Assembly (NCBI RefSeq): GCF_001644025.1
Contig: NZ_LUUK01000032.1
Coordinates: 1-34,004, forward strand
Length of the DNA: 34,004 nucleotides
Direction: 5' to 3'
Source of the DNA: Methylomonas koyamae
GTDB taxonomy: Bacteria; Pseudomonadota; Gammaproteobacteria; Methylococcales; Methylomonadaceae
In this document: positions 8,951 to 33,976 of the stretch, piece after piece
Position numbering within the stretch: position 1 is the stretch's first letter
How the letters are laid out: each line of letters starts with the position of its first letter
The notes under the pieces: generated by a model
What the model saw: the letters and a program-made list of their open reading frames with translations, nothing else
Told to the model about the DNA's origin: nothing
The model's database searches: none
Position numbers and translations under genes: made by a program

Positions 8951-8965
8951 CGCGAACCATCGAAA

Positions 8966-9003
8966 ACAAAAAGGCGCGATTGCCCGGCAATCGCGCCTTT
9001 TTT
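8966..9003. terminator. Bidirectional rho-independent terminator between purD and the RlpA-like gene
   Basis: GGCGCGATTGC (8973-8983) pairs perfectly with GCAATCGCGCC (8987-8997) around a 3-base loop. A run of T follows on the plus strand and a run of A precedes it, which becomes the T-run for minus-strand transcripts. It lies between convergent genes and can stop both. Confidence 0.93.
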
Positions 9004-19102: not shown

Positions 19103-19122
19103 GAAGTTTGAATATTTATTTA

Positions 19123-19150
19123 CAAATAAAAAGGGGCCTTTCGGCCCCTT
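19123..19150 (-). terminator. Rho-independent terminator after pilA
   Basis: On the minus strand AAGGGGCC, loop GAAA, GGCCCCTT is followed by a T-rich run. It lies between the pilA stop (19174) and the TPR protein start (19102), limiting read-through and favouring a high pilin-to-downstream ratio. Confidence 0.88.
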
Positions 19151-19173
19151 CTAATTAACAGTTATTCCAGCGG

Positions 19174-19641
19174 TTAGGTTTTCGGATGATACTTGCTGCT
19201 CACACCAGAAGCGTTGATATCAATACTCCATTGCATGCCGGCGCCTGGTTTGCACACGCCAGTATAGACTATATCCTGCCCACTGGTGATCGCCGTACCA
19301 ATCGTGGTGTAAACGATCGTAACGGTCGCATGATCCTCCTGATCTGACGTAATATATACAGAGTTTACATATTTACCCTTAATAGATGTCTTATTGGACA
19401 ATCCAAAGTCAAGGTTAGTCAGGCCAGCTGTGCTTGAACCGAGTGCGCCTTCGCTACAGGCCACGCCACCCGCCGTCAGCGCCGGAGACGCCAAACTCGG
19501 GCCTTCGGACACTTTGGATCTGACCGTATAGTCTTGGTAAGCCGGAATCGCGATAGCGGCCAAAATACCGATAATCGCGACGACGATCATCAGTTCGATC
19601 AAGGTGAAACCTTGTTGTGTTTTACGCATTTGAATGTTCAT
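19174..19641 (-). CDS. pilA: Type IV major pilin
   Basis: The 155-residue protein has a type III signal sequence ([11 protein letters not shown]) cleaved by PilD before Phe12. The mature N-terminal helix [20 protein letters not shown] has Glu at position 5, and [17 protein letters not shown] follows. The globular domain contains only two cysteines (Cys62 and Cys130), which would form one disulfide. This is a large loop rather than the short C-terminal D-loop of Pseudomonas PilA. A second ATG at 19629 is possible, but the first keeps the usual leader length. A sigma-54-like promoter lies upstream and a terminator downstream, as expected of a highly expressed monocistronic pilin. Assembly genes are not in the window. 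Confidence 0.95.
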
Positions 19642-19685
19642 AGCGGTATCTCTCTGTCTGATTGAATAACGAACGCATTAATCAA

Positions 19686-19701
19686 TACAAAACTTATGCC
19701 A
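19686..19701 (-). promoter_or_regulatory. Sigma-54-type (-24/-12) promoter candidate for pilA
   Basis: The minus strand reads TGGCATAAGTTTTGTA. It aligns without gaps to TGGCACGN4TTGCW, keeping GG at -24 and TTG at -12, with T for C in the -12 GC. The predicted start would lie near 19675, giving a leader of about 35 bases. Pilin genes in related bacteria are commonly driven by RpoN and PilR, which fits. Confidence 0.5.
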
Positions 19702-19880
19702 GAATTGGCTTTTGCTACTGCGGAATAGCCAGTAATTTTTTAAAAACAAGATCAACAACTTACCTAAAACCCAGCCCTAGACCACTAAATCAAACAGCAA
19801 CCTGCGGAAACCCGGCAAGCCTTGCACCATCGTTCCAAGTCGAAAACTGACGTTTTTTGTCACGCCCCTTGCCGCGAGTA

Positions 19881-21671
19881 TCACGCATTTTGTTTGCCGG
19901 CAAACCACAGTTCCAACATCATCAAAATCCAGATCAGTTCGCCGTAGTAGGCCGCATGTATGCTTTGATGCATCGCAATCGCGTGATCGAGAAATTCCGG
20001 CTTGAAATAACCGCGCTTTTTTAACGCGTTGATCGCGTCGTAGGCCAAGTCCTTCAATGGCTGATGGTCCTTGAGCCAGATACCGAACGGCAGCCCGAAG
20101 CCGTGCTTGGATTTATTGATGATCGCGTCCGGCAGAAAATCCGCCATCGCCTGCTTATAAAACCAACGTAATTTTTGACCGTGCAATTTAGCGGCGGACG
20201 GTATTTGGCAGGACAACTCGACGATACGGCTATCGAGCAACGGATAGCAGACTTCAACGCCGGCCAGTTCGCACATCCGATTGACCTTGACCAAATCGTT
20301 GTCGTGCAGCGTGGCTTTCCAGTCCATATACAGCATTCGGTTCAAGGTGCTCGCCTGATCCGGGCGCCGGTAATTGTCTCGTAGCAGTTGCAGCGGTTCG
20401 CCGGTATCGATTTGCGCCAGAAAATCGCCGACAAAAATGTCGGTAGCAGCATGACGGTGCAAAAAGTTGTAATCCTGCAATCGATCCGGCATCGCGGCCT
20501 TCGCTTGCTCGATATAGCGCTTGGCCTTGAACGGCAATTTAGTATTCGCCAAACCAGCCGGCAAGGCGTTCAACACCCCTTCCAAACCAGCGCCAACCGC
20601 TCGGGGCAAGCGATGATAATGATCGAACAACATCTGCTTGGCGTAGCGCTCGTTGCCGGCGAAGATCTCATCGCCGCCGTCGCCGGCCAGCAAGCGCCCG
20701 ACGCCGTTGTCCTTAGCCAATTTCGCGCAATAGTAGGCCGCCAAGGCCGACGAGTTGCCGAACGGCTCATCGTAATACGCGGCAATCATCGGGACGGCAT
20801 TGACGGTGTCTTCCGGCGTTACGTAATACTCGTGTTGGCGCGTATTAAAATGTTTGACCGCAATGTTGGCATATTCGATTTCGTTGTAACCTTCGACCGG
20901 AAAACCCATCGAAAAAGTCTTGGCCTTTCCAGGAAACACCCTGGCCAGCGTGCCGGCCACGCTGGAACTATCCAAACCACCGCTTAAAAATGCGCCGGTA
21001 TCGTCTTCGCTACCGACCATGCCTCGCACGGTTTCGATCAAGCCGGCTTTCAAGTCCTCGCCGGCCTGCCGCAAATCGAGCGCGGATTCATTAAACGTCG
21101 GCACCCAGTAACGCCGCAGTGCCAATTTGCCGTCTTCGAAACTTAATCGCTGACCGCCTTCCAACTTCTTGACGTTGGTGTAGATGGTGTTCGGGCTAGG
21201 GCAATGGTGATAATAGACGTAGTCGTAAATAGCCTGCGCCGAAATTTCGTTTTCGACCGCCGGATGGCGAACCACGAAATCGGCATTGGAACCAAACACG
21301 ATCGCGGAATCGGCAACCGCGTAATAAACGTGACTCAAGCCGATCGGGTCCATGGCTGCCAACAACAAACGGCGGACGCTATCGATCAAAACCACGCCAT
21401 CGCATGAGCTACCGCCATCGAATAACGCGGCACCGTGCCGCCGATACCGCGCCAAGACTTCCCGCAAATGCTCCGGAGAAGCAGCCGTCTTCAAAGCAAA
21501 CAACAGAATGCCATCGTCTCGGAGCAGCGCCGGCGCTTGACTGGCCAGTCCGAAATGACCGTCGTATTGAAAATCGAAGGCCGACCCGGCCCGACCGACC
21601 AACTCGGTCAGACTCGCGACAGCGCTTTCGTTCCAGGGTCCGCTGCCCACCCATCCCGCGAATTTTGTCAT
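19881..21671 (-). CDS. Asparagine synthase-like amidotransferase lacking the glutaminase Cys
   Basis: The 596-residue protein has the two-domain asparagine synthetase plan. Its N-terminal Ntn-hydrolase-like half starts MTKFAGWVG, so the catalytic Cys2 of true glutaminases is missing. The synthetase half has the ATP-pyrophosphatase loop AFLSGGLDSSSVAG, then DEPFGNSSALAAYY, LLAGDGGDEIFAGNERY and the C-terminal KHGFGLPFGIWLKDH. It should activate a carboxylate with ATP and couple it to an amine or ammonia not drawn from glutamine by this chain, as in lasso cyclases or beta-lactam synthetases. It is last in the XrtA operon, 9 bases after the AMP-ligase gene. Substrate unknown; amidation of a sugar acid or an aminoacyl group is possible. 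Confidence 0.85.
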   Translation of the reverse strand: MTKFAGWVGSGPWNESAVASLTELVGRAGSAFDFQYDGHFGLASQAPALLRDDGILLFALKTAASPEHLREVLARYRRHGAALFDGGSSCDGVVLIDSVRRLLLAAMDPIGLSHVYYAVADSAIVFGSNADFVVRHPAVENEISAQAIYDYVYYHHCPSPNTIYTNVKKLEGGQRLSFEDGKLALRRYWVPTFNESALDLRQAGEDLKAGLIETVRGMVGSEDDTGAFLSGGLDSSSVAGTLARVFPGKAKTFSMGFPVEGYNEIEYANIAVKHFNTRQHEYYVTPEDTVNAVPMIAAYYDEPFGNSSALAAYYCAKLAKDNGVGRLLAGDGGDEIFAGNERYAKQMLFDHYHRLPRAVGAGLEGVLNALPAGLANTKLPFKAKRYIEQAKAAMPDRLQDYNFLHRHAATDIFVGDFLAQIDTGEPLQLLRDNYRRPDQASTLNRMLYMDWKATLHDNDLVKVNRMCELAGVEVCYPLLDSRIVELSCQIPSAAKLHGQKLRWFYKQAMADFLPDAIINKSKHGFGLPFGIWLKDHQPLKDLAYDAINALKKRGYFKPEFLDHAIAMHQSIHAAYYGELIWILMMLELWFAGKQNA

Positions 21672-21680
21672 GTTGCTCGA

Positions 21681-23030
21681 TTAAGGCTTGACGTGGCTGA
21701 TAACGTACCGGAATTTGCCGGAACGCTCCTTGGGTATGTAATCGGTATATTCGATCGCAACGTTGACCGTCTCGCCCAATCGCTTTTTAAATTCCGCGAC
21801 GATGCGTTGTTCGGATTCGGCTCGGTAAGCGTCGGTCTTGACGATTTGCACGCTGGTCTTTTCCAGGCTGTCTTGCGTGATCTTGAAAGCGTCGACACCT
21901 TCTAAATCGCGCAACACATAAATCAAGGCCAGGCCGTGCAGCACGGTGCCGTCCCGCGCCACAACGAAGTCGGTGGTGCGACCTTGTATCTCTTCGAGCA
22001 ACGGCAGCCCTCGCCCGCAAGCGCAAGCTTTGTCGGACAAGATTCCCATGTCGCCGGTGCGGTAGCGGATAAACGGAAAATCGCGCGTCGCCAGATGGGT
22101 GACGACAATCTCGCCCAACTCGCCATTGGGCAGCGGCTTGCCTTGTTTATCGACAATTTCGACGATGATGTCTTCCGCCGTGATGTGCATCGCGCCTTCC
22201 GGACACTGATGAGCGATGAAACCGGCATCGCGGCCGCCATAGCCGTTGGCAACCGGACAACCGAAGACCGCTTGAATCTTGTCACGCTGATAATCGTATA
22301 AGCGCTCGGACGTGACGAAGGCCACCTTGATACCCAAATCGGTCATTGCCACGCCGCGCTTTTCGGCGTGACTGGCAATATGCGCTAACGCCGACGGATA
22401 GCCGAACAGCATTTTCGGCCGGATTTGCCGTATCCTGGCCACGAAGCCGTCCAACTTTTCTTGAGACATCTCGAAAGCCGGTATTAAATGGGTCCGCAAC
22501 AGCTTATCGCGAATCAGCCGAATTTTATCCTGCGCGCCCAGCTCGATCGGCGACCCCCATATCACCGCTTCGGGATCGCCGATGTCGACACCCCACCAGC
22601 GGGTGGCGCGCCATTTGGCGGCCACATCGTGACTGACGCGGCGACTGCCGATGTAAAAAATCAATGGCTCGCCGCTTGATCCGCCGGTGTTGAAGCGGGC
22701 CAAACCCTCGGCATCATCCGCCCGCATTTTATCCAAATTGGCGCGTATCGTCGGTTTGTCCAGCAAGGGGAGGCGCGCCAAATCGGTTAAACTGGCGACC
22801 TGCTCCGGATTGAAGTCTAATGCCGCAAACAATGTCCGATAGTAAGGCACATGCTGGCCAATATCGGTTAGAAACCGTGTCAAGTCCTTGACCTGAGCCT
22901 GGCGAATTTCGTCCACGCCCAACCACTGGCTACGCTCCATCGCCTTGCGCACTCTGACGGTACTGTGTTTTTTTAACGCTTCGTGTAGAGGAAACAGCAC
23001 GGAGGAGCACAGCGAGGTGTAAAGGCTCAT
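21681..23030 (-). CDS. PaaK-like AMP-forming acyl-CoA ligase/adenylating enzyme
   Basis: This 449-residue protein belongs to the phenylacetate-CoA ligase (PaaK) branch of adenylate-forming enzymes. Visible motifs are the P-loop FNTGGSSGEPLIFY (about 112-125), NGYGGRDAG in the substrate region, FIRYRTGDMG, the Cys motif CACGRGLP and a C-terminal lysine in KERSGKFRYVIS. Such proteins occur repeatedly in exopolysaccharide loci with exosortase A; their substrate is not known. It overlaps the preceding glycosyltransferase by ATGA and is followed 9 bases on by the Cys-less amidotransferase. The pair may therefore activate and transfer an acyl or aminoacyl group onto the polymer (inference). Confidence 0.85.
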   Translation of the reverse strand: MSLYTSLCSSVLFPLHEALKKHSTVRVRKAMERSQWLGVDEIRQAQVKDLTRFLTDIGQHVPYYRTLFAALDFNPEQVASLTDLARLPLLDKPTIRANLDKMRADDAEGLARFNTGGSSGEPLIFYIGSRRVSHDVAAKWRATRWWGVDIGDPEAVIWGSPIELGAQDKIRLIRDKLLRTHLIPAFEMSQEKLDGFVARIRQIRPKMLFGYPSALAHIASHAEKRGVAMTDLGIKVAFVTSERLYDYQRDKIQAVFGCPVANGYGGRDAGFIAHQCPEGAMHITAEDIIVEIVDKQGKPLPNGELGEIVVTHLATRDFPFIRYRTGDMGILSDKACACGRGLPLLEEIQGRTTDFVVARDGTVLHGLALIYVLRDLEGVDAFKITQDSLEKTSVQIVKTDAYRAESEQRIVAEFKKRLGETVNVAIEYTDYIPKERSGKFRYVISHVKP

Positions 23031-24235
23031 GATCGATTTACCAGTTGGTTGAATTCCGCCACCAAGACAGCGACGCGTTGATCCCAGCCATTCTGAGCGG
23101 CATAGGCAATAATCGCATGGCGATCCCAGTCGCGCCCTAGCGCGGCATCGAGTGTCTCCAGCAAGGCATCGCGATCGCCGAACGGCACCACCTGCCCCAA
23201 ACTATCGTCGCAAACCACCTCGCGATTGCCGCCAACATCGGTGGTTACAATCGGCAAACCGCAAGCCATCGCTTCCAAGAACACATTGGCCCAGCCTTCG
23301 TTAGCAGTCGCCAATACAAAAACGTCGGCGGCGGACAGAACCTCTTTCAAGGCCGCGGCGGGCATCGCACCCAGAAAACGCACCTGTTCAGCGAGGCCCA
23401 AATCGGCGACTTGCCTTTCCAAACGCTGGCGAATATCACCCTCCGGACTGCCGCCACCGACAATCAAGTAGCGTAAACCGGGATGTTTTGCCAGCAGCGC
23501 CGGCAATATCTCGATGACTCGGTGAAACCCTTTGCGATCGACCAAGCCACCCACTGAAATCAGCACCGGCGCATCGACGTTGAGTTGCAAATTCTGACGA
23601 GTCGAGACTTTATCCAGCGGATAGAAGACATTCGTATCGACGCCATTCCCCACCACCAAAATTTTATCGGCTTCGGCACCGATGCTAACGACATGTCGTT
23701 TAAGCGATTCCGACACAGAGAACACTCGAGCGGCCCTACGAAGCGCCGCCAACAGGCGCGCCCGCCGACTGGCGATTTTGGACAACGGTACTTCGGTGCC
23801 GCGTAACGTGATTGTAACCGGCACGTGGAAACAGCGCCCCAACCATCCTGCCGCGTAGCCGTCCGGATAGGCAAAATGCGCGTCAATCAGATTAAATCCG
23901 AAGTTGCGAGACAATCGGTATAAAGTCCGATAACTGCCCAACGCCATCATCAAACCGTCCCACCGGCGGCCTAATCCTGGCAAGGACAGAAACCTCGGGA
24001 AATAAACGTCGATACCGTCCTGACATTCGTAAGTGGCGGGCTGTGGCCGGTAATTGGGCTTGAATTTGCGGATCACCCCTTGAAACGGGAACCAGGGTAC
24101 CGGCGAGACCACCGCCAACTCACAGTGCGCCGCGACCCTGCGCATGCGCTCCCGGACGAATACACCGGCATTCGGGCGAACCTGACTGGGGTAGAGACTG
24201 CTGAAAACCACCAGCCTGGGATCAGTCCGCGTCAT
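23027..24235 (-). CDS. Family 4 glycosyltransferase of the XrtA exopolysaccharide locus
   Basis: The 402-residue protein is a GT-B glycosyltransferase using a nucleotide sugar in the cytoplasm. It starts VVFSSLYPSQVRPNAGVFVRERM, typical of the Glyco_transf_4 N domain. The C domain has VVGNGVDTNVFYP, ISVGGLVDRKGFHRVIE and, around residue 315, the EX7E motif EGWANVFLEAMACGLPIV. Its ATG overlaps the upstream gene's stop by 14 bases and its stop overlaps the AMP-ligase start by 4, so translation is coupled on both sides. Donor and acceptor sugars cannot be inferred. Confidence 0.9.
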   Translation of the reverse strand: MTRTDPRLVVFSSLYPSQVRPNAGVFVRERMRRVAAHCELAVVSPVPWFPFQGVIRKFKPNYRPQPATYECQDGIDVYFPRFLSLPGLGRRWDGLMMALGSYRTLYRLSRNFGFNLIDAHFAYPDGYAAGWLGRCFHVPVTITLRGTEVPLSKIASRRARLLAALRRAARVFSVSESLKRHVVSIGAEADKILVVGNGVDTNVFYPLDKVSTRQNLQLNVDAPVLISVGGLVDRKGFHRVIEILPALLAKHPGLRYLIVGGGSPEGDIRQRLERQVADLGLAEQVRFLGAMPAAALKEVLSAADVFVLATANEGWANVFLEAMACGLPIVTTDVGGNREVVCDDSLGQVVPFGDRDALLETLDAALGRDWDRHAIIAYAAQNGWDQRVAVLVAEFNQLVNRS

Positions 24236-25442
24236 GCCCGTCCCGTATCAATCCGGCATACACCGCTTGATAACGTGCCACGCTGGTTTGCCAGTTACGG
24301 ATTTGTTCGACATAGTGCCGTCCAGCTCGACGGATGTCGTCCCAATGCGATTTATCGGCCAAGGCATTCAAAACGGTGGACGCCAAGGCCGCTTGGTCGC
24401 CGGCTCGGAACAAATAGCCGGTCCGCCGATCTTCGATCAATTCGTGATGACCGCCGACATCCGAAGCCACCAACAGGCGACCTTGCGCCATGGCTTCGAG
24501 CGGCTTCAGGGGCGTAACCAAATCGGTCAGTCGCATCGACAATCTCGGATAGACGAAAATATCGACCAAATTGTAATACCGTTGCACCTGATCATGGGGA
24601 ACCCGTCCCGGCATCACAACCCAATCCGCCAGCCCTAAGGCTTGAATTTTCTGTTGGATTTGTGCTTGTTGCGGACCACCGCCAACTAACAACAGCCGGA
24701 CATCCGGCCGCTGCCGGACGATCTCCGGCAAAGCATCCAGCAACAACAGCAAACCTTCGTACGCGTAAAACGAGCCGATGAAACCGAGTACGATTTTTCC
24801 CGTCAGGCCTAGTTGATCGAGTAGCGCGGGTTCTGCAACATCACCGAAACTGAATTTTTCGATATCGACCGCGTTGGGAATCACGGTGATTTTTTCGGCT
24901 GGAATACCCCGTCCGATAATATCGTTGCGGAGTCCTTCGCAAATCGTCGTCACAGCATCGGCATTCTTAAACACATACGTTTCCAGGGCTTTGGTAATAC
25001 GGTAACGCAAGCTACCTTCCGCGGTCGTACCGTGGTCGACGGCGGCATCTTCCCAAAATGCCCTGCATTCGTAAACCAACGGCAATCGGTATTTTTTGGC
25101 CATTCTCAAAGCCGCCATCCCGTTTAATGCCGGAGAATGAGCATGGAGGATATCCGGGCGAATTTCCGGAATGATCTGGTCCAACCTTCGCGCCAGAGTC
25201 TGAACAATCGCCCATTGGTTCATAACGGGTAATTTTGCCTGTAAACCGCGCGGTTGGGACGAACGATAAAAATCCAAGCCATCCACCGTTTCGAAATCGC
25301 TACCGGGAGCCTGATGCTTGGCGGAAGTCACATGGAAAGTGTGCCAACCCAGCTTACGTTGCTGTTCGAGTATCGCTCGGGTACGAAAGGTGTAGCCGCT
25401 GTGCAATGGAATCGAGTGATCCAGAATATGTAAGATTTTCAT
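24222..25442 (-). CDS. PEP-CTERM/XrtA system glycosyltransferase (TIGR04063 type)
   Basis: The 406-residue protein begins MKILHILDHSIPLHSGYTFR, the hallmark start of the TIGR04063 XrtA-associated glycosyltransferases, which is why the ATG at 25442 is chosen over an open frame to 25496. The C domain shows ITVIPNAVDIEKFSFG, VLGFIGSFYAYEGL and the donor-binding LVTPLKPLEAMAQGRLLVASD. It would add a sugar to the lipid-linked exopolysaccharide repeat. It follows the nucleotidyltransferase gene after 60 bases and overlaps the next glycosyltransferase. The ribosome site is weak. Confidence 0.9.
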   Translation of the reverse strand: MKILHILDHSIPLHSGYTFRTRAILEQQRKLGWHTFHVTSAKHQAPGSDFETVDGLDFYRSSQPRGLQAKLPVMNQWAIVQTLARRLDQIIPEIRPDILHAHSPALNGMAALRMAKKYRLPLVYECRAFWEDAAVDHGTTAEGSLRYRITKALETYVFKNADAVTTICEGLRNDIIGRGIPAEKITVIPNAVDIEKFSFGDVAEPALLDQLGLTGKIVLGFIGSFYAYEGLLLLLDALPEIVRQRPDVRLLLVGGGPQQAQIQQKIQALGLADWVVMPGRVPHDQVQRYYNLVDIFVYPRLSMRLTDLVTPLKPLEAMAQGRLLVASDVGGHHELIEDRRTGYLFRAGDQAALASTVLNALADKSHWDDIRRAGRHYVEQIRNWQTSVARYQAVYAGLIRDGHDAD

Positions 25443-25502
25443 GTCGAGAAGGTTCTTGTTTAAGACTGTCAAGTCGGCTCGCCATGAAGTGAGCACCCGG
25501 AA

Positions 25503-26582
25503 TTAGTGCTTCTCTTTGCCGGTCAGACGCATCCAGGCCTTGATAGTCAGATGGGGCAATAGCAAATACCACGGCATTTTTAACCAATGCGCCCGCAAAA
25601 ATAATACGTTACGGGCCAAACCTGTCCAGCGGTCGGTGCAACTTGGATGGACCGGCATCAGCGCGCGAATGAACAAAAAATCCATCACCGCGAGAATTGC
25701 CTTGGCGGGCGTCACTTGTTGAAGTTGCCGGGCCAATTCGTCCGACAGCGGTGTACCGAGTATTGTAGTCGAGTAACGCAATGCGTAAAGGACTGGCCTT
25801 GCCAGACCCAATTCGGATGAACGAGAAATCAATCTGACCTGCTGTTCGCCCAAACCGCGAATCAGCGCATCTAAATCGACCAAGTCCCGCAAGCCGTGCT
25901 CCAATTCACCGTCATAAAACAAATGAACCGCGCTGTGTATCACTTGATCGACCGGGGATAATACCGCTAGTCCATCGAATTTCTCCAATGCGCGCGCATC
26001 GGCTAGTAGTAATCCGGCATCGGGACAATCCTTACACGTTATCGGCAGGATGTTATGGTGTAGATCGATGACGCTGCCCCTGGACAGGTGTCTGATTGGT
26101 GGAATTTCATGCATCCAGCGCCGGTAATAACGTTCGTTGTAAACGCCGTTTTGCCCGCCCATCCAACCATGAATCATCAAACGCTTCTCGGCGGAGCCTA
26201 TTTTTTCGCGGGGAACCAGTAAATCAATATCTGAAAAGACCCTACCTCTCGCGGCGGGGTGTTCAGACACTGCATACGCCGCGCCCTTCAACAAGACAAA
26301 AGGAAACTCTAACTGTCGAGCCACTTTTTGCAACTGGCGAATTTCCCAAAATAGGTCGTTGCTTTGTTTTTCGGAAAAACATTTTGCGGAGATAAAATGC
26401 CGACGCGCGGCTTCCGGAATTTCATCCAGTCCGCCACGGCTCTCCACCCAGTGAACCAGCTTCGCCAGTAGCATCGATGCACGTGCCTGCCTGACTAATA
26501 ATCCCCATTCGGGTAAGGACAACTCGGCATGAGACACCTGATCGTTGATCACCTTGACCAACAAGGGCCATTCAAAACTCAT
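25503..26582 (-). CDS. Uncharacterised nucleotidyltransferase family protein (PF14907 type)
   Basis: The 359-residue protein carries the minimal nucleotidyltransferase signature LLKGAAYAV (about 98-106) followed by GRVFSDIDLLVPRE, giving the DxD metal pair. A histidine-containing stretch, VIDLHHNIL, and a helical C-terminal half follow. This is the layout of the 'uncharacterised nucleotidyltransferase' family often found beside PqqD-like and HprK-like genes in exosortase and lasso-peptide loci. Its reaction (nucleotidyl transfer to protein, peptide or sugar) is unknown. It overlaps the kinase gene by ATGA and so belongs to that coupled block. Confidence 0.8.
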   Translation of the reverse strand: MSFEWPLLVKVINDQVSHAELSLPEWGLLVRQARASMLLAKLVHWVESRGGLDEIPEAARRHFISAKCFSEKQSNDLFWEIRQLQKVARQLEFPFVLLKGAAYAVSEHPAARGRVFSDIDLLVPREKIGSAEKRLMIHGWMGGQNGVYNERYYRRWMHEIPPIRHLSRGSVIDLHHNILPITCKDCPDAGLLLADARALEKFDGLAVLSPVDQVIHSAVHLFYDGELEHGLRDLVDLDALIRGLGEQQVRLISRSSELGLARPVLYALRYSTTILGTPLSDELARQLQQVTPAKAILAVMDFLFIRALMPVHPSCTDRWTGLARNVLFLRAHWLKMPWYLLLPHLTIKAWMRLTGKEKH

Positions 26583-27490
26583 TCGGCGCTCTTAAGTTGG
26601 TCGAAAATTTGAACGGCATCGTCTAGGCAGCTGTAACGCAACTGGTAACAGCTTGCCCGGTCCAATACATTGCGCAAGGCGTAAAATCCCGCGTAGCCTA
26701 ACCGACTAAAATTAAACGCGTTATCCGCTACATCAATAAACGTTAACGATTTTGCCTTTGGCGCAAACTCGGTCGCGGAGCCAGCTTCATATTTTGGAAA
26801 TATGACCCAAGCAATCGGACAAGACTCGCTCTGCCGACTGACGCTGGTTTCGGGTGGCTTAAGATGGCAAACAGTGCCCTTCGATGTATCCGTTGACAAT
26901 GGCCCGAACACAAGGCCAGGATAGCGCTTGGCGACGATGTCAATGGATTGATTCTTCAAGCTGACGGGACGGGGAAAGGGGTGTACTCGGAATGTCACTG
27001 GATCAACCAGAGTCAATTCGTCCGATAGTAATCGCCAACCTTCTTGAATCAACGTGGCGGTCAAAGTACTTTTTCCGGATCCCGGCGGCGCCGGTAACAC
27101 AGCCGCCCAGCCATTTTTCTCTATGACAGCAGCATGGATTATCAAAAAAGTATTAATTTGACTAGATACACACCAATTCATCCCCCATTCGATCAAAGCC
27201 GGGGCATGTTGTAGCGGTAAAGGATTGAAGGGCGCGTAGCCATCAAAACGAAATTCAGCGCTTTTACTTATCGAGCTGAACCAATTATGTCCAGAAGTAA
27301 CCGATACGGGGAAATCAACGAACACACTACTATCAAAAACTTCAAAATCGGCATACAAAATCGAAAGACTCTGCGCCACTGAAGCCAATTTAGTCGTGAT
27401 AGCAAAGCAAAACTGACCAAGTTGCAAATTCAAACCGCTATTTCGCAGTCGGCTATTAACCTCCTGGAAAGGCAAATGCTGTAATCTCAA
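26579..27490 (-). CDS. HprK-related kinase A (TIGR04352 type)
   Basis: The 303-residue protein resembles the C-terminal kinase domain of HPr kinase/phosphorylase. LIIHAAVIEKNGWA precedes the Walker A PAPPGSGKSTL (133-143), then GWRLLSDELTLV (151-162) supplies the acidic residues, followed by the FPRPVSLKN block. The N-terminal part (GQFCFAITTKLASVAQSLSILY, FDGYAPFNPLP, EWGMNWCV) is typical of the HprK_rel_A subgroup and not of true HprK. No HPr-like protein is nearby. The start is TTG, overlapping the PqqD-like stop as TTGA; family alignment in memory supports it. Likely a kinase of a peptide or other small partner, as with lasso-peptide kinases, but no substrate is shown. Confidence 0.88.
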   Translation of the reverse strand: MRLQHLPFQEVNSRLRNSGLNLQLGQFCFAITTKLASVAQSLSILYADFEVFDSSVFVDFPVSVTSGHNWFSSISKSAEFRFDGYAPFNPLPLQHAPALIEWGMNWCVSSQINTFLIIHAAVIEKNGWAAVLPAPPGSGKSTLTATLIQEGWRLLSDELTLVDPVTFRVHPFPRPVSLKNQSIDIVAKRYPGLVFGPLSTDTSKGTVCHLKPPETSVSRQSESCPIAWVIFPKYEAGSATEFAPKAKSLTFIDVADNAFNFSRLGYAGFYALRNVLDRASCYQLRYSCLDDAVQIFDQLKSAE

Positions 27491-27759
27491 TTTACCGGCT
27501 CAATTAATTCTTTTTGCAACAAAACCTGTATCAGACTTTCTAAATACCCAGCTTTGTCGCGCGATTTATCCGATAAGTCGAAATTTCCGATGATGTCTTC
27601 AAGCATCGTTTGATCAAATGGCGTAGGCTGAAAACATCGCTGAATCAGCTCTAACGGCATCGCCTCAAACAAAAACGTAGTACCGGAGTTGCGATGATAA
27701 ATCACGACCCCATCACCCCAATCCACGCAATAGACTTCTCCAACTACTCGCCAGAGCAT
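27487..27759 (-). CDS. PqqD-like peptide chaperone of the HprK-related-A system (TIGR04353 type)
   Basis: The 90-residue product reads WRVVGEVYCVDWGDGVVIYH then SGTTFLFEAMPLEL and a helical C terminus ending LLQKELIEPVN, the winged-helix PqqD layout (strands then helices). PqqD-type domains bind leader peptides of ribosomal precursors and hand them to modifying enzymes. The ATG at 27759 is chosen because family members begin at MxWR. The frame is open further to a TTG at 27792, which would overlap the previous gene by 13 bases. It is directly between the Cys-rich protein and the HprK-like kinase, overlapping the latter. Confidence 0.85.
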   Translation of the reverse strand: MLWRVVGEVYCVDWGDGVVIYHRNSGTTFLFEAMPLELIQRCFQPTPFDQTMLEDIIGNFDLSDKSRDKAGYLESLIQVLLQKELIEPVN

Positions 27760-27779
27760 AAAACCAGAAGACTGTTGTC

Positions 27780-28616
27780 TTACGCCGTGCAACCGTCAGC
27801 GATCAAGTGATGGCAAAAGTCAATAATATCCTGGGCTGAACAATCTACTGCACCAACTTTATACTTACCTCCGGTCTTTACCGCCTGAAAACAAGCTTGG
27901 ACATCCGACAGCGAGCTTCCAACCACATGTTTGCCATCACAAGCGTTAACAAACAACCAAGCCATACAGTTATCCAACCCTATATCAGTCCCTTGATCCA
28001 GCTCTTTTATACAATCGTTTAACGTTTTGTTGGCATTGGTGGTAGGCCCTAACGCAGTATCACTGAAGATATAATATCCGTAGGTGGCCTCGTTACGCTT
28101 AAGAGTCGCATAGTCATTCTGGCCGTTGGATCGCAATTCACTCTTCGTTTTCGGCGCTTGAGTGCTTTTAGTCCACACCGCATTTAAGTTCCATTGCCCC
28201 TTTTGAGTGTCGTTCCGGTTTGAGGTCCAAGAGTTTGGCGCCGTTCTATCTCGTCGACACCCAGATCCCCCTTCCAAAGTTCCACCCGTCTCGTGTTTAC
28301 TCGAGTGAGGCTTACATTTGCTTAAAGGCCACTGACTCGGGTTGTCGCAATAATGCTTCGGGGGACGCGGCCCCGGATTAGTCACAATATTACCGGAGTA
28401 CGCAGTTCTATTCGGACCTATTGAATGAAACCCAGAAATGGTACATTCGTCAACGCCACCAGTACCCCCTCCCCATGCAGGACGATTAGCCAAAGTTAGG
28501 ATGACAGGAACCGCAACGCCAGCTTTAGCAAACTTTCTTCTAGATTTATCAATTACTTGCTTGCCCTCTTGCAGTTGACCGTTCTCGATCAGGCTATCAT
28601 CTTCTTCGAATCGCAT
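27780..28616 (-). CDS. Cys-rich protein with twin-arginine-like N terminus, candidate substrate of the PqqD/HprK block
   Basis: I do not recognise a named family. The 278 residues start with an acidic, Gln-rich stretch (1-24), then SRRKFAK (25-31), close to the Tat consensus S/TRRxFLK. A hydrophobic run AGVAVPVILTLA follows, then NRPAWGGGTGG. The remainder is hydrophilic with 11 cysteines (for example CTISG, HYCDNP, SGCRRD, NDCIKE, DNCMAW, NACDGK, DFCHHL, DGCTA) and no PEP-CTERM tail. This suggests export and disulfides, or processing behind the GGG. Such 'RRxFAKAG...P..LTLAxRPAW' proteins recur, as I recall, next to HPr-rel-A PqqD genes. It starts 93 bases after the amidotransferase gene; the ribosome site is weak. 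Confidence 0.75.
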   Translation of the reverse strand: MRFEEDDSLIENGQLQEGKQVIDKSRRKFAKAGVAVPVILTLANRPAWGGGTGGVDECTISGFHSIGPNRTAYSGNIVTNPGPRPPKHYCDNPSQWPLSKCKPHSSKHETGGTLEGGSGCRRDRTAPNSWTSNRNDTQKGQWNLNAVWTKSTQAPKTKSELRSNGQNDYATLKRNEATYGYYIFSDTALGPTTNANKTLNDCIKELDQGTDIGLDNCMAWLFVNACDGKHVVGSSLSDVQACFQAVKTGGKYKVGAVDCSAQDIIDFCHHLIADGCTA

Positions 28617-28709
28617 ATTACACCGCCACTTAGAAAAACTTGAATTGGTTCACACTCTAGCAAATCAATTAATTAATGTCTATTGCCCGCTCGTACAAGT
28701 TAACCAGCG

Positions 28710-30599
28710 TCAAAACCCGGCATTTCTAAGAAACGCCTCGAACATTAACAGCGACCAAATCGCAGCGCTGTAATCTCGCAAACCTGCCTGGTGTTGGGTC
28801 ACCATATGCTCCAAGTAAGTGCGATTAAACCAACCCGTTTGACCAAGCGTATTACCCAACAAGGCCTCCCGTACGCGTTCTTTCAAAGGCCCTCGGAACC
28901 AACTGCTCAAAGGCACGGCAAACCCCATTTTAGGTCGATACAGAATATCGTTCGGAAGATGAGACTCCAGTGACTTTTTAAACAAATATTTGCCTTCTCG
29001 ACCATTGAGCTTATAAGACGGCGGCAATGTCGCCATCCATTCCACCAGTTTGTAGTCCAACAACGGAACCCTGACTTCCAAGGCGTGAGCCATGCTTGCC
29101 CTGTCGACTTTAGTCAGGATGTCACCGGCTAAGTAAGTCTTCAGATCCAGATATTGAACCATAGACAGAGGATCGCTCGGTGCTTTTTCCCGATATCGAT
29201 GAAATACCTCGATTGCGCCGTAACCTTGCAATTCCGCCCTTAGCTGCTCGCTAAATAATTGCTGACGCATGCCATTGGACAGCACCGACACGCTATGAAA
29301 ATAGCCCGCCATAGAATCTCGGCCTATCGACTCCAACGTGGTTTTTGCTCTAAATACCTTCGGTGCCCAGTCGAGTTTTGGGTAGACCCGACCTAAAGTC
29401 GAAAACAAAGGCATCCGCAAACCATCCGGTAATAAAGAACGCATTCTCTCCTCGTAGGTATGCCAGCGATAACGCCGGTAACCCGCTAAATTTTCGTCGC
29501 CGCCATCCCCGGACAACACCACGGTCACTTGTTTTTTGGCTAACTCGCAAACCCGATAAGTGGGTAATGCGGAACTGTCGGCATAGGGTTCGTCATACAA
29601 ACCGGATAAGCAATCAATCAGACTGAAATCATCGGGATCGACTTGTTCGACCCGATGAGCAGTGTGATATCGACCGGCAACTTGAGCCGCGAATTGCGAT
29701 TCATTGAATTTTGGATCGCCGAACGAAATCGAGCAAGTGTTAACCGGATCGTCGGACAAACCGGCCATTAAAGCCACGACCGCGCTGGAATCAACGCCGC
29801 CCGACAGGAAGGCTCCCAAAGGCACGTCAGCCATCATCCGGATTTTAACAGCCTCCCGTAATCGTTCGATCAACTCTTCACCAGCAGCATCCATGCTAGA
29901 GAAATTACCCGGATCGAAAGTCACATCCCAATATTGACGAGGCTTAATCCGTTCGTCTCCGCGCCGAATCGCCAAACTATACCCCGGCTCCAGCTTATAG
30001 ACATCCCGATAAATTGTTTTAGGGTCTGGCACGTAACCGAAACCGAAATAGTCCTCGACCGCCGTCGGATCAATCCGAGTTGGCAGCAGCGGATGCTGCT
30101 TAAGCGCCTTCAACTCGGAACCGAATATGAAATGTCCGTTAGCCAATAGTGAGTAGTACAATGGCTTGACACCCAATCGATCACGCGCAAGGAACAAGGT
30201 TTGTTGTGGTCTGTCCCACAACGCAAACGCAAACATACCCCGTAGTCGGTCCACGCAAGCTTCTCCCCACGCTTGCCAAGCGTAGAGTATTACCTCGGTA
30301 TCGCAGTGAGTTCTGAAGCTGTAGCCCAAGGCTTCCAACTCGCCGCGCAACTCGGGAAAGTTGTATACCTCGCCATTGTAGGTTAGGACGACATTTCTAT
30401 CCGCGCTGTGCATCGGTTGCTGACCACTGGACAAGTCGATGATCGACAAACGACGATGCCCAAAGCCCAAGCCGGGCTCGCTATGCAGACCGCCCTCGTC
30501 CGGTCCACGATGAAACTGGGATTCGTTCATTTTCGACAACAATCCGCGGTCAATTTCCCCGCTGCCTTGCATATCGAATATCCCCACGATGCCACACAT
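28710..30599 (-). CDS. XrtA/PEP-CTERM system amidotransferase (TIGR03108 type)
   Basis: The 629-residue asparagine synthetase-like enzyme has an intact glutaminase domain starting MCGIVGIFD with nucleophile Cys2, plus FHRGPDEGG, GHRRLSIIDLS and YNGEVYNF. The synthetase domain has AFLSGGVDSSAVV, DEPYADSSALPTY, VVLSGDGGDENLAGYRRY and KMGFAVPLSSWFR. FGFGYVPDPKTIYRDVYKL is characteristic of the exosortase-A-associated group. It would use glutamine-derived ammonia to amidate a carboxylate, plausibly a uronic acid of the exopolysaccharide as WbpS-type enzymes do (inference). The ATG has CGGAGA about 9 bases upstream. It contrasts with the Cys-less paralogue at 19881-21671. Confidence 0.92.
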   Translation of the reverse strand: MCGIVGIFDMQGSGEIDRGLLSKMNESQFHRGPDEGGLHSEPGLGFGHRRLSIIDLSSGQQPMHSADRNVVLTYNGEVYNFPELRGELEALGYSFRTHCDTEVILYAWQAWGEACVDRLRGMFAFALWDRPQQTLFLARDRLGVKPLYYSLLANGHFIFGSELKALKQHPLLPTRIDPTAVEDYFGFGYVPDPKTIYRDVYKLEPGYSLAIRRGDERIKPRQYWDVTFDPGNFSSMDAAGEELIERLREAVKIRMMADVPLGAFLSGGVDSSAVVALMAGLSDDPVNTCSISFGDPKFNESQFAAQVAGRYHTAHRVEQVDPDDFSLIDCLSGLYDEPYADSSALPTYRVCELAKKQVTVVLSGDGGDENLAGYRRYRWHTYEERMRSLLPDGLRMPLFSTLGRVYPKLDWAPKVFRAKTTLESIGRDSMAGYFHSVSVLSNGMRQQLFSEQLRAELQGYGAIEVFHRYREKAPSDPLSMVQYLDLKTYLAGDILTKVDRASMAHALEVRVPLLDYKLVEWMATLPPSYKLNGREGKYLFKKSLESHLPNDILYRPKMGFAVPLSSWFRGPLKERVREALLGNTLGQTGWFNRTYLEHMVTQHQAGLRDYSAAIWSLLMFEAFLRNAGF

Positions 30600-30620
30600 A
30601 TTATTATTCTCCGGCGCTAT

Positions 30621-31754
30621 TTATCGCTCGTCATAAACCCGTTGGTAGCGAGACACCATATTATCGATCGAAAACTCCTGGCGGATGCGCTCCAATCCGG
30701 CCGCCCCAAAACGGCGACGCTTGTCGGAATCGGCAACCCACTCCGCTAGCACCCTTGCCATAGCCTCCGGATTTTCCTTTTCGACCAGCATCCCTGTCTC
30801 TCCGTCCAAGATCAGCTCGGGATTGCCTCCAACCCTCGTCGCCAACACTGGAAGCCCCGTTGCCATCGCTTCCAGTATAGTATTGGATATACCTTCGGCC
30901 TTGGATGGCAACACAAAAATATCCAGGCAACGCAAAATATCGGGGATGTCGTCACGATCACCAGACATCCAAGCTTGGTCTAGCAATCCGGCATCCGTCA
31001 ATAGGCCAGCACTCTCTGCTCGTAAAGGCCCATCGCCTATCAACCAAAGCCGAGTCACTCCAGCAAAGCCCGGATACGTTTGGCAAGCATGAATGTACGC
31101 CCTAACCAGTGTCAATTGATCCTTTACTCCATGCATACGACCCACCGTGCCTATGACGACTTTCCCGGACAAAAGCATATCGCAATGCATTGGAGCCGCC
31201 CGATCGCAATCGCGAGGATAAAACCGGTTTGTGTCAACACCGTTACAAATGCGAGTGATTTTAGCTGCCGGAATTTTGACCTTTTCCTGCAAATAATCCT
31301 GCAAATGTTTGGACAATGGAATGAATCGATGAATGATTAGCCCCAACGCTCGACGCAAGCGCTGATACTTTAGGTTATTGCCGTCAGGATCAAACACGTC
31401 CCAGCCGTGTTCCCCGTGAACCCGGTAGGGTATTCGAGCCAACCAGGCGCAAACCTGATATTCGATTGCCCCTAGATTTCGAGTATGCACAACCGCAGGC
31501 TTCCAAGCCTTAAACAACTTATAAACCTTATAAAACGACGCCCAGTCCTGTCCCGGTTTCTTATGCAACTGGTGGACGACGACATCGGACCGGTCGATAC
31601 GCTGGGTAAAATCTGTCGCATCGGCCAAACAAATGATGGCATGCCGATAACGTTCTTTCGGCATTTTGTTAATGATATTAACTAAGCCATTTTCCAAACC
31701 GCCGATGCCGAGACGGTAAATGATATGCACAACCAAAGGCACCGCTTCGTCCAT
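30621..31754 (-). CDS. PEP-CTERM/XrtA system glycosyltransferase (TIGR03088 type)
   Basis: This 377-residue GT-B enzyme begins VVHIIYRLGIGGLENGLVNI, characteristic of the TIGR03088 group, with VVHTRNLGAIEYQV, GEHGWDVFDPDG and ICNGVDTNRFYP. Near the C terminus EGISNTILEAMATGLPVLAT carries the EX7E donor motif. The frame opens at a TTG at 31760, but the ATG at 31754 with AAGG upstream is the better start. The gap to the preceding gene is 8 bases. It probably adds a sugar to the undecaprenyl-linked repeat at the inner membrane. Confidence 0.92.
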   Translation of the reverse strand: MDEAVPLVVHIIYRLGIGGLENGLVNIINKMPKERYRHAIICLADATDFTQRIDRSDVVVHQLHKKPGQDWASFYKVYKLFKAWKPAVVHTRNLGAIEYQVCAWLARIPYRVHGEHGWDVFDPDGNNLKYQRLRRALGLIIHRFIPLSKHLQDYLQEKVKIPAAKITRICNGVDTNRFYPRDCDRAAPMHCDMLLSGKVVIGTVGRMHGVKDQLTLVRAYIHACQTYPGFAGVTRLWLIGDGPLRAESAGLLTDAGLLDQAWMSGDRDDIPDILRCLDIFVLPSKAEGISNTILEAMATGLPVLATRVGGNPELILDGETGMLVEKENPEAMARVLAEWVADSDKRRRFGAAGLERIRQEFSIDNMVSRYQRVYDER

Positions 31755-31762
31755 CGTCAACC

Positions 31763-32953
31763 TTAACCTGCGAGCAAAGTCAAAAGCTTATCGGCATTCG
31801 CGGACCAGCCAAACGCACGTTCGACAAACCGACGGTTGTCTTCGGCGTAAACAGTAGGTTGTTGCAGGTAAGACACAACCCTTTCGGCAAACTCATTTGG
31901 TTCATCGGCGACGGCGACCTGCAACTCTTGACCAGCAGATATCCCTTCCATCGCCGCCGACGTTGCGACCACGGGCTTAGCCATCGCCATGGCTTCCAAA
32001 ACCTTGTTCTGTATGCCTCGAGCAATACGTAACGGTGCCACGATCAAACGGGCGTGAACAATATATGGTCGCACTTCGTCGACTTTGCCGGTAACGATCA
32101 CTGCCGAGTCGTTTTCCGATAACTGCAGTACTTCCTTGGCTGGCTTGGAACCGACTATGTAAAACTTAGCATGCGGGCATTGTCGCTTGATCTCCGGGAA
32201 CACACTCTCGGCAAACCACTTGACCGCATCGACGTTTGCCCAATAATCCATGGCACCTGTAAATACGATGGGGGATTGTCCGCTCGGAAACGGCGAATCA
32301 CCAGCGACTTTCGGATCAAAACGATCAGTATCGACACCGTTATTTACGAAATCGATCTTGTCTTTCGCGATCGGCGCTAGGGCCTTAAACAACGCGGCTT
32401 CCTGTTCCGAAACAAATATCGTCTTCGCCGCCCGACTGGCAATTTGTGTCTCATAACGTAACAAAGTCCGAGCTTCGCGCCGATAGATCCAAGCGGCCGG
32501 CCAGCTTTTACTGTTGGCATACTGGCTCCACTTATCGGAGTCGACATCGACGAAATCCGCGACGACCCTTAACTCGGGGTAACGCTCGACGTACTGAGCC
32601 ATAGGCGACGAGAAAATCAGCGCGCGGTCTATACCCTCGGTACTTATGACCTGATCAACCCAACGACGCAATGCCTTATCTCGATAATACGGAAGACTCA
32701 AGGCCTCGCCGCTGAATAGGCCGCGCGCACTTTTAAGCTTATTGAGGCCGGGCGACAATTCCACACAACATACATCCCTGCAATAAGGCTTGAGCGCTTC
32801 AATATATTGGCGGTCTTCAGGATCATCCACAAAAGTGCCGAGGAATATCTCGTACCGTTTGGCTAGCGCTCGCAGAAAATGAAACGAGCGAATTTTGTCA
32901 CCCTTGTTGGGGGGAAACGGAATCCGATGAACCAGGTATAGCAGTTTAGGCAC
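31763..32953 (-). CDS. PEP-CTERM/XrtA system glycosyltransferase (TIGR03087 type)
   Basis: The 396-residue protein starts PKLLYLVHRIPFPPNKGDKI, the signature of TIGR03087, and continues with FSSPMAQYV, VADFVDVDSDKWSQYA, FVNNGVDTDRFDP, VFTGAMDYWANVDAV and the donor-site region GIQNKVLEAMAMAKPVVATS. The start is GTG at 32953, three bases after the FemAB stop, and agrees with the family N terminus. It works with the TIGR03088 enzyme encoded just downstream in most XrtA loci. Confidence 0.93.
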   Translation of the reverse strand: MPKLLYLVHRIPFPPNKGDKIRSFHFLRALAKRYEIFLGTFVDDPEDRQYIEALKPYCRDVCCVELSPGLNKLKSARGLFSGEALSLPYYRDKALRRWVDQVISTEGIDRALIFSSPMAQYVERYPELRVVADFVDVDSDKWSQYANSKSWPAAWIYRREARTLLRYETQIASRAAKTIFVSEQEAALFKALAPIAKDKIDFVNNGVDTDRFDPKVAGDSPFPSGQSPIVFTGAMDYWANVDAVKWFAESVFPEIKRQCPHAKFYIVGSKPAKEVLQLSENDSAVIVTGKVDEVRPYIVHARLIVAPLRIARGIQNKVLEAMAMAKPVVATSAAMEGISAGQELQVAVADEPNEFAERVVSYLQQPTVYAEDNRRFVERAFGWSANADKLLTLLAG

Positions 32954-32956
32954 GAA

Positions 32957-33976
32957 TTATCCCAAATCCTTGGCCAGCCATGGTCCCACAACCTGACTGA
33001 CTGGCAGCGGCAGCTTCTTCCAGGCTGCAATAAATAATCGATACTTGGGATTCAACGGATTGATGTCCGGAATCTGCTTCGCCTTCACCAAATCGATTTC
33101 GTAGTACAGCGGCTCGGGCTCAAAGCCCCAGTGCTTCTTGAAGCGATAAGAGCCAGTATCGATCTTGCTGCGCCCGTAATCAAACACGCGACAGCCTCTA
33201 TCCACCGCCCGCCGCATGACCTCCCAATACATGAAATCGTTAGCTTTTAAGTCTCGAGCAGCCTCGGTGCCGCCGCCGTAATAAGGCAAAACTTCATCCT
33301 TGAAATAAAAATTCATCACGCTAGCCACTAAACGACCTTCGTGCTCGATCGATAATATCTCGCAATCGTTACCGAAAGCCTCTTTTAGTACTTTAAAATA
33401 ATGCCTCGGAAACACGGGAGTCCCCAAGTTTCTGACGCTTTCGGAATACGCTTGAAACAATCGCTCGACGTCGTTATCGATTACGCCGACTAAACCCGCT
33501 TTGATGCCCGCTCTCACCATCGCTCGCTGTTTTCTGGGAATCGCGTTCAGGTTTTTTTCGTGGTCGGAATCGAGCGTTTTGCGAAATGTTACGTACAACG
33601 CTTTATGCGGCCAATCGCGATGCGTTTGAACGCGATTTCTCATTTCAAGGCAATCAACGTTCAACGTTCTGGCCAATTGTTTGCCTTGCGCCTGTAACGC
33701 ACGGAAAGCCTCGTCGTTACTGGCGACAATGCCGCCGTATACGCAAAAGGCATTCGAAACCAGCGTGTTTCCAAACAGTAAACTGTTGATGTGCGTCAGC
33801 GGTAGAATGCCGGTAATTTCGCCGTCCTGCTCGGCATAATAGTAATAAGTATCGTGACCGAAGGCAGCGGCAATAACGCGTTGCCACGCAGACAAGTGGA
33901 AAAAGGTCGAGTCGGCCGCAGCCATCACATAAGCATCCCAACGCTGGGCTTGCGATGGTTCAAGTAATTTGATCAT
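32957..33976 (-). CDS. FemAB family XrtA/PEP-CTERM system-associated acyltransferase (TIGR03019 type)
   Basis: The 339-residue protein has the double GNAT fold of FemAB-like aminoacyl/acyltransferases: WDAYVMAAADSTFFHLSAWQ near the start, ITGILPLTHINSLLFGN, NAIPRKQRAMVRAGIKAGL, LVASVMNFYFKDEVLPYYGG, and the strongly conserved CRVFDYGRSKIDTGSYRFK and KHWGFEPEPLYYE. FemAB enzymes transfer amino acids from aminoacyl-tRNA or acyl-CoA to cell-wall or exopolymer acceptors. In XrtA loci the acceptor is unknown. The ATG at 33976 leaves only 28 bases before the window end, so whether an upstream gene overlaps cannot be seen. Confidence 0.92.
   Translation of the reverse strand: MIKLLEPSQAQRWDAYVMAAADSTFFHLSAWQRVIAAAFGHDTYYYYAEQDGEITGILPLTHINSLLFGNTLVSNAFCVYGGIVASNDEAFRALQAQGKQLARTLNVDCLEMRNRVQTHRDWPHKALYVTFRKTLDSDHEKNLNAIPRKQRAMVRAGIKAGLVGVIDNDVERLFQAYSESVRNLGTPVFPRHYFKVLKEAFGNDCEILSIEHEGRLVASVMNFYFKDEVLPYYGGGTEAARDLKANDFMYWEVMRRAVDRGCRVFDYGRSKIDTGSYRFKKHWGFEPEPLYYEIDLVKAKQIPDINPLNPKYRLFIAAWKKLPLPVSQVVGPWLAKDLG

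Follow-up and report, generated by a model that had tools for sequence, protein, structure and literature searches.

A conserved HPr-rel-A gene unit in Methylomonas koyamae and other Proteobacteria pairs modification-type enzymes with a probable Tat-exported substrate

Introduction

Gene clusters that combine a discrete RiPP recognition element (RRE; RiPP, ribosomally synthesised and post-translationally modified peptide), an HprK-like kinase and a nucleotidyltransferase are described for linear polyphosphorylated peptides (LPPs) and for certain lasso peptides, and here we compare with both a four-gene unit from Methylomonas koyamae, encoded within a 34,004-nt stretch of contig NZ_LUUK01000032.1 (positions 1 to 34,004; hereafter the window). 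In LPP clusters the HprK-like kinase is accompanied by an RRE and by an NTP transferase; this kinase, LppK, places phosphates on Ser3 of the core, the S3A substitution abolishes phosphorylation, and LPPs are given as restricted to Bacillota (Popov et al. 2026, PMC13381572). LPPs have their own YxxPxVLxHQ leader, an SpI-like peptidase (LppS) and an MsbA-like exporter (LppD), and according to the same report lasso RREs recognise the motif [Y/W]xxPx[L/V/I/F/A]. In the pseudomycoidin pathway a C-terminal Ser is the target of the kinase, and PsmN decorates the resulting phosphoserine with one or two hexoses, prior nucleotidylation being left possible (PMC9266682, PMC8498205).

The M. koyamae unit has in common with LPPs the discrete RRE, the HprK-like kinase and an uncharacterised NTP transferase (LppN is likened to ours by enzyme type), together with a conserved N terminus, a variable C terminus, a Ser near the leader and a frequent location in polysaccharide loci (PMC13381572); it differs in its proteobacterial hosts, its putative twin-arginine translocation (Tat) signal and its larger proteins. 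With the paeninodin and pseudomycoidin clusters it shares a B1-type RRE, an HprK-like kinase and a nucleotidyltransferase (PMC8498205, PMC9266682), but it has no macrolactam cyclase and no small core peptide, and its putative Tat signal is shared neither by paeninodin-type lasso peptides nor by LPPs. The window protein does not match the LPP leader motif. Neither an SpI-like peptidase nor an MsbA-like transporter belongs to the four-gene order or turned up in family scans of window genes from 17084-33976, no dedicated search having been made at other loci; likewise, a lasso B2 leader protease is not within the unit, where no dedicated profile search was made. Because the unit has LPP-type enzymes without the LPP leader motif, a lasso cyclase or a short precursor, we set it apart from both groups.

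The window kinase is a member of the HPr-rel-A system named in NCBIfam (TIGR04352 and TIGR04353). The window PqqD-like protein scores just under the TIGR04353 cut-off, and its position and family profile agree with that assignment. To HPr-rel-A we add a putative Tat-type family of precursors with a Ser motif, and the nucleotidyltransferase as a constant partner. Literature searches on HPr-rel-A, on HprK-related kinases with exosortase, on PqqD chaperones and on TIGR04352/TIGR04353 found nothing within a coverage outside which most subscription papers fall, and a search joining RRE with twin-arginine matched solely a hot-spring community study.

Results

The four genes form a conserved unit

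The window unit comprises genes for a precursor, a PqqD-like RRE protein, an HprK-related kinase A and a PF14907-type nucleotidyltransferase (Table 1). A first-pass annotation of the window had described four contiguous genes with the last three translationally coupled or overlapping, and this description holds: all four open reading frames (ORFs) lie on the minus strand, and the PqqD-like/kinase and kinase/nucleotidyltransferase junctions each overlap by 4 bp. The precursor and PqqD-like ORFs overlap by 13 bp when the latter begins at its TTG start and are separated by a short gap when it begins at the ATG at codon 12. The full row is transcribed in the order amidotransferase, precursor, PqqD-like gene, kinase, nucleotidyltransferase, glycosyltransferase. 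Searches of the window genome found a single match each for the kinase, the precursor family and PF14907, and phage records searched with the window kinase gave zero matches at E<=1e-5.

Table 1. Coordinates of the genes and sequence features discussed; entries without a locus prefix are window positions
Feature	Position	Strand	Match or remark
Precursor (proposed substrate), 278 aa	27780-28616	minus	acidic N-tail, Tat-type signal (predicted), Cys/Ser motif, divergent Cys-rich body
Putative twin-arginine signal, residues 24-50 (KSRRKFAKAGVAVPVILTLANRPAWGG)	28467-28547	minus	leader profile E 6e-21 (window among seeds)
Cys58-x2-Ser61-x3-Ser65 (CTISGFHS)	28422-28445	minus	proposed modification site, Ser65 first
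PqqD-like RRE protein	27487-27792	minus	TIGR04353, 30.9 bits (cut-off 35)
HprK-related kinase A	26579-27490	minus	TIGR04352 HprK_rel_A, 351.7 bits (cut-off 200)
Nucleotidyltransferase	25503-26582	minus	PF14907 NTP_transf_5, 152.9 bits (cut-off 31.2)
XrtA amidotransferase	28710-30599	minus	TIGR03108, 1068 bits; begins MCG, Cys kept
Glycosyltransferase	24222-25496	minus	TIGR04063
Asparagine-synthetase-like ORF	19881-21671		begins MTKF, amidotransferase Cys absent
Type IV pilin gene, then 672-aa protein	17084-19641	minus	PF07963, PF00114 (pilin); C-terminal TPR repeats (672-aa protein)
Vibrio alfacsensis plasmid pVa1 locus	L187:7875-10942		precursor, kinase, nucleotidyltransferase
Single frame, weak PqqD-like match plus HprK-like kinase	L185:9137-10345; L195:2098-3312	minus	beside PF14907-type gene
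Short Tat-like peptides at loci with divergent HprK-like kinases	L163:4446-4706; L164:4576-4746, 6212-6388; L174:679-816; L186:3238-3585, 3827-4150
The same, remaining loci	L196:2853-3065; L200:8045-8212; L202:1964-2233; L203:4277-4687; L207:6375-6680
Trypsin-like protease genes, examples	L034:6043-6840; L072:5364-6161; L078:5238-6080		PF13365

Using the kinase, we collected 101 loci, made up of the window, 20 from relatives and the 80 top-ranked among at least 392 named hits. By record title, the named hits come for the most part from gamma- and betaproteobacteria, with one Magnetovibrio, and titles also place the unit in methanotrophs, Thiobacillus, Massilia and Nitrotoga. The order precursor, PqqD-like gene, kinase, nucleotidyltransferase on a single strand was found at 95 of the 101 loci. 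The PqqD-like gene and the nucleotidyltransferase are each present at 100, and the leader protein is encoded directly upstream at 96, which bears out the conserved adjacency of precursor and PqqD-like genes on which the first-pass annotation had staked its proposal. The six exceptions to the order comprise three contig edges (L068, L089, L110), two loci with the precursor 2.2 kb off on the opposite strand (L088, L122) and L094. The last, from a Nitrosospira metagenome-assembled genome, has the kinase and the nucleotidyltransferase, and neither precursor nor PqqD-like gene was found upstream in sequence that is unmasked there.

Genome-level counts gave the same picture. Among 274 genomes sampled from the class independently of the kinase, 27 encode the kinase over its cut-off, and a precursor-family match lies directly upstream in 22 of these, including two imperfect cases in which the match begins behind the signal (G147) or is interrupted by stops (G097). 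The remaining five comprise weak leader matches upstream (G131, G174, G252), a contig edge (G298) and a borderline match (G055, E 0.001) that disappeared in a larger search. A leader-type match occurred in 3 of the 247 genomes without the kinase over cut-off, and in two of the three it lies next to a divergent HprK-like kinase (association p 1e-24, with no phylogeny correction). Of 41 relatives, 22 have the kinase over cut-off, and the precursor was found in 21 of these and in 0 of the 19 others; in the single miss (G037) the kinase lies close to the end of a 4.3-kb contig. Together, these observations confirm that the four genes form a real, conserved unit. In two annotated records the kinase already bears the name HprK-related kinase A, and the precursor-type gene upstream is labelled 'hypothetical protein'.

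Three of the four genes (precursor, kinase and nucleotidyltransferase) also occur, flanked by unrelated metabolic genes, on the V. alfacsensis plasmid pVa1. In the gap at 8688-8973 of that locus no PqqD gene is annotated, and one translated frame there contains stops.

The precursor family probably carries a Tat-type signal and has one invariant Ser

The window precursor gave zero Pfam or NCBIfam matches at E<=1; for the family as a whole no Pfam or NCBIfam model fitted members consistently, and solved structures gave no match at E<=1. A profile (A2) built from 40 of the 98 precursors matches the window protein at E 2.0e-36, the window being one of its rows; the leader profile, too, was built from loci within the set that it later searched. 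Trimmed members are 167-310 aa long (median 217.5) and share three recurring parts, namely an acidic, poorly conserved tail, a signal segment with the approximate consensus SRRxFxKxGxxAPVIxTLASRPVLG, and a Cys/Ser stretch with the body. Behind the signal runs C-x(1-3)-S-x3-S-GN-x-S, followed by a second Cys and later by SPGYW and LNA. Across the 98 members, mean pairwise identity reaches 41% in the signal and 38% in the Cys/Ser stretch, compared with 15% in the tail and 22% in the remainder; across the 17 genus members the corresponding values are 58%, 35%, 20% and 21%.

By regular expression, the 98 members include 96 with RR, 95 with a hydrophobic h-region and 90 with a T/S-L-x-x-[RKQP]-like end pattern, and tatC was matched in all 25 genomes searched, over its cut-off in 23 including the window genome. 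On these sequence marks the N terminus is probably a Tat-type signal and the family probably Tat-exported. The leader-like N terminus noted at first pass is conserved and alignable across the family; its Tat-type character (SRRKF at residues 25-29 of the window protein) had been missed. The description of the protein as Cys-rich fits the window member, which has 11 Cys, and does not extend to the family, where Cys numbers 2-12 with a median of 4 and at least 10 in just 6 of 98 members; we rejected Cys-richness as a defining trait.

The sole invariant column of an 85-row alignment (A6) corresponds to window Ser65, 13 divergent, duplicate or odd rows of the 98 having been removed before it was read, and the loose Cys/Ser motif is present in 91 of 98 members. 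In five other secreted proteins (L190-L194) the match to the family profile starts only at model position 72-78, past the signal and Ser motif. They share the SPGYW...ALLNA-type domain and are mostly larger than the precursors; the three with a visible N terminus (L191-L193) have by eye the look of an ordinary Sec signal, L190 and L194 being incomplete, and a C-x-S-x3-S in L194 is a chance occurrence within a repeat. Although five cases are few, the body domain without the signal and Ser motif fits a scheme in which these two elements travel with the enzymes and not with the domain.

The enzymes appear to retain catalytic-type motifs

Six further divergent loci were drawn from the class genomes for a weak or absent precursor match (107 loci in total), and the enzyme alignments (A3-A5) each comprise 38 of the 107. 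Across the 38 kinases the Walker A residues and a D-E pair are invariant, and RLLSDE can be aligned, though weakly (E 0.005), to RLIADD in HPr kinase/phosphatase, P-loop included. Invariant in the nucleotidyltransferases are K-G-x-x-Y, D-x-D, a third Asp and YY-x2-WMHE-x-PP; no solved structure matched this family among those searched. Both enzymes thus appear, from their alignments, to retain catalytic-type motifs. All 38 PqqD-like members match TIGR04353 at E<=0.01, one also matches ScmD (E 0.005), and among solved structures two lasso B1 proteins come closest, TfuB1 (E 0.006) and TbiB1 (E 0.38), each as a weak match.

SynChlorMet cassettes, which have radical-SAM partners, likewise hold an HprK-like and PqqD-like pair (ScmC and ScmD by their NCBIfam names). 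ScmC is the second-best match of the window kinase, at 34.9 bits far under the cut-off of 125. At two loci (L185 and L195) a single frame holds both an HprK-like kinase and, by a weak match, a PqqD-like domain.

An RRE-type motif is enriched in short Tat-like peptides beside divergent HprK-like kinases

A filter applied to 37 loci whose HprK-like kinases are more distant yielded 17 short Tat-like ORFs of 46-137 aa. The strict motif [YW]xxPx[LVIFA] lies within 45 residues of the twin arginine in 9 of the 17; among 51 ordinary Tat signals used as controls, 1 has it (p 4e-6; counted per locus, 7 of 14 versus 1 of 51, p 4e-5). The controls are the best TIGR01409/PF10518 matches in 94 genomes, are mostly long enzymes and did not pass through the peptide filter. 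They comprised 56 rows, of which 51 were resolved; about five of these 51 were probably misread, and subtracting five gives 1 of 46. A looser form of the motif is present in 11 of the 17, spread over 9 loci; because the filter was composed after the peptides had been viewed and the loose form was broadened after viewing two, the strict 9 of 17 is the fairer count. Six motif-less ORFs that resemble chance ORFs were kept in the 17, and the L185 peptide and the L165 peptide (on a contig without a visible kinase) stand outside it.

Examples with the motif are SRRKFIKAAAYTAPVVMTL (L163), SRRALLQAGWAIPVILATE (L174) and KKWTRPVVDSVVLPAHA (L186, with the motif behind the hydrophobic core). Of the 11 short peptides in Table 1, 9 have [YW]xxPx[hydrophobic] within or directly behind the signal, and several look like separate, unnamed families. 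In the main family x-x-x-P-x-hydrophobic is found in 74 of 98 precursors, 63 of which start the pattern with A, V, L or I; the window has VAVPVI, and no [YW]xxP within residues 1-62. We read these patterns as an RRE site built into the Tat signal, such that RRE binding and Tat export would be mutually exclusive.

Neighbouring genes

In 15 of 16 congeners the cassette lies between the exosortase A (XrtA) amidotransferase and the TIGR04063 glycosyltransferase; L050 is without the amidotransferase at that place. XrtA over cut-off was found in 22 of the 27 class genomes that encode the kinase over its cut-off, and in 29 of 247 others (p 4e-14, no phylogeny correction), and an XrtA-system gene was detected in the flanks of 29 of 54 named loci of at least 14 kb and undetected in 25, undetected meaning nothing by tblastn above set identities. 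The link to exopolysaccharide genes is therefore statistical and not obligate, and of the tie to exopolysaccharide export proposed at first pass the co-occurrence stands; exopolysaccharide as an obligate partner is rejected on these 25 flanks and the pVa1 locus.

The first-pass annotation had also pointed to a Cys-less asparagine-synthetase-like enzyme encoded at the end of the operon. The gene exists as described (Table 1), while the amidotransferase adjacent to the cassette keeps its Cys. An asparagine-synthetase-like gene is found at 18 of 100 loci, and L072 is alone in having one among the 76 loci without window-type XrtA genes; we rejected it as part of the four-gene system on the count of 18.

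Discussion

We consider it moderately probable that the four genes act as a compact unit by which a single dedicated protein is modified in the cytoplasm ahead of its Tat export. The PqqD-like RRE would bind the twin-arginine signal of the precursor through [V/I/L/A]-x-x-P-x-hydrophobic in the hydrophobic core, and binding would present the Ser motif, just past the signal, to the HprK-like kinase. The kinase would then phosphorylate the invariant Ser (window Ser65), and the PF14907 enzyme may attach a nucleotide or a sugar to the Ser phosphate. Ser65, proposed first, is the sole invariant Ser in a divergent family. On release of the RRE, the folded and tagged protein would leave through Tat, with the signal cut near residue 49-50, and in many hosts it would probably serve the XrtA/PEP-CTERM cell-surface programme. 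Leader-guided phosphorylation followed by a further transfer, as the first-pass annotation had suggested, is retained as the best reading and matches LPP and lasso chemistry, with both reactions proposed by analogy. Since the RRE-binding motif would lie inside the signal, an RRE-bound precursor would not be exportable, and we tentatively extend the scheme to one in which RREs were recruited to read Tat signal peptides and phosphorylation with nucleotidyl or glycosyl transfer frees the precursor as an export licence; this extension is possible, and we hold it with some doubt.

Several observations weigh against modification ahead of Tat export as set out above. The aromatic RRE motif occurs in just 4 of the 98 main-family precursors, and the 74 with the Pro pattern leave 24 members without it. 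No short Tat-like peptide with the motif came from 28 of the 37 divergent HprK loci. The standard Tat models TIGR01409 and PF10518 were absent from the matches of 40 members at E<=1 with HMMER filters on, and leader and PqqD distances are uncorrelated after removal of the kinase distance (partial r 0.015; 92 used). In 4 of the 6 extra class loci (L166, L169, L170, L171) the nucleotidyltransferase lies about 2 kb upstream on the opposite strand, so the gene order is not universal. A trypsin-like protease gene (PF13365), which falls outside the proposed scheme, is present in 23 of 85 flanks and could have an optional role, perhaps as a partner in maturation. Finally, deletion of LppN had no visible effect in the LPP host (PMC13381572), so that the final transfer step is unproven even in a close relative.

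The protease bears on an LPP-like RiPP pathway, in which the precursor would be cut and the product would be a small phosphorylated, glycosylated peptide and not the whole protein. The three matching enzymes, the conserved N terminus with a variable C terminus, the 35-200 aa range of LPP precursors and the polysaccharide setting (PMC13381572) fit such a pathway, as do the Tat-like peptides of 46-137 aa at divergent HprK loci and the 15 of 85 loci with a same-strand protease gene just upstream of the precursor. The main family, however, is 167-310 aa long with a conserved body (SPGYW ... LNA) that is also present in other secreted proteins, most loci have no such protease, and none was found in the window; we give a small-peptide product a small but real chance. 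Alternatively, the PqqD-like protein may be a Tat proofreading chaperone, with a sugar, a lipid or a regulator as the target of the kinase and nucleotidyltransferase, by analogy with HPr/HprK control of carbon use or exopolysaccharide. The HprK relationship of the kinase and the XrtA enrichment in kinase-positive genomes agree with this, but the substrate gene is tied more tightly to the kinase than the XrtA genes are, similar enzymes modify peptides in LPP and lasso systems, and in L185 and L195 the PqqD-like domain (a weak match in both) and the kinase share one frame, which together make a separate kinase target improbable in our judgement.

Within a modification scheme, the kinase could address the C-terminal residue, since HprK homologues of paeninodin-type lasso pathways phosphorylate a C-terminal Ser (PMC8498205); given that the C termini of our family are highly variable, that the window protein ends in Ala and that the invariant Ser lies behind the signal, this seems very improbable. 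A variant lasso cluster with the asparagine-synthetase-like enzyme as cyclase has a negligible chance: the ORF is without the amidotransferase Cys and scores 128 bits with the lasso cyclase model, but this is far under the cut-off of 525 and below the 279 bits of the XrtA amidotransferase model, the gene is infrequent among the loci and the precursor is too large. The lasso reading is rejected on gene content, in agreement with the first-pass view that this is not a standard lasso cluster; the amidotransferase beside the cassette is of the XrtA type, the asparagine-synthetase-like ORF stays under the lasso cyclase cut-off, and the trimmed precursors are all of at least 167 aa.

Modification of a dedicated protein before Tat export would give the named but orphan HPr-rel-A enzyme set a likely substrate with one candidate residue. 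If it is correct, RRE, HprK and NTP-transferase chemistry reaches beyond small peptides to whole exported proteins, in Proteobacteria, and an RRE is able to bind a signal peptide, coupling modification to Tat export. The export-licence principle, if true, would span the HPr-rel-A proteins and several short-Tat-peptide families beside divergent HprK kinases, uniting RiPP-style enzymology with protein-export quality control. We know of no phosphoprotein in the XrtA cell-surface programme.

Towards the end of the row of XrtA-type genes in the window, a type IV pilin gene is followed by a gene for a 672-aa protein with C-terminal TPR repeats, and our guess is that this pairing is linked to pilin glycosylation.

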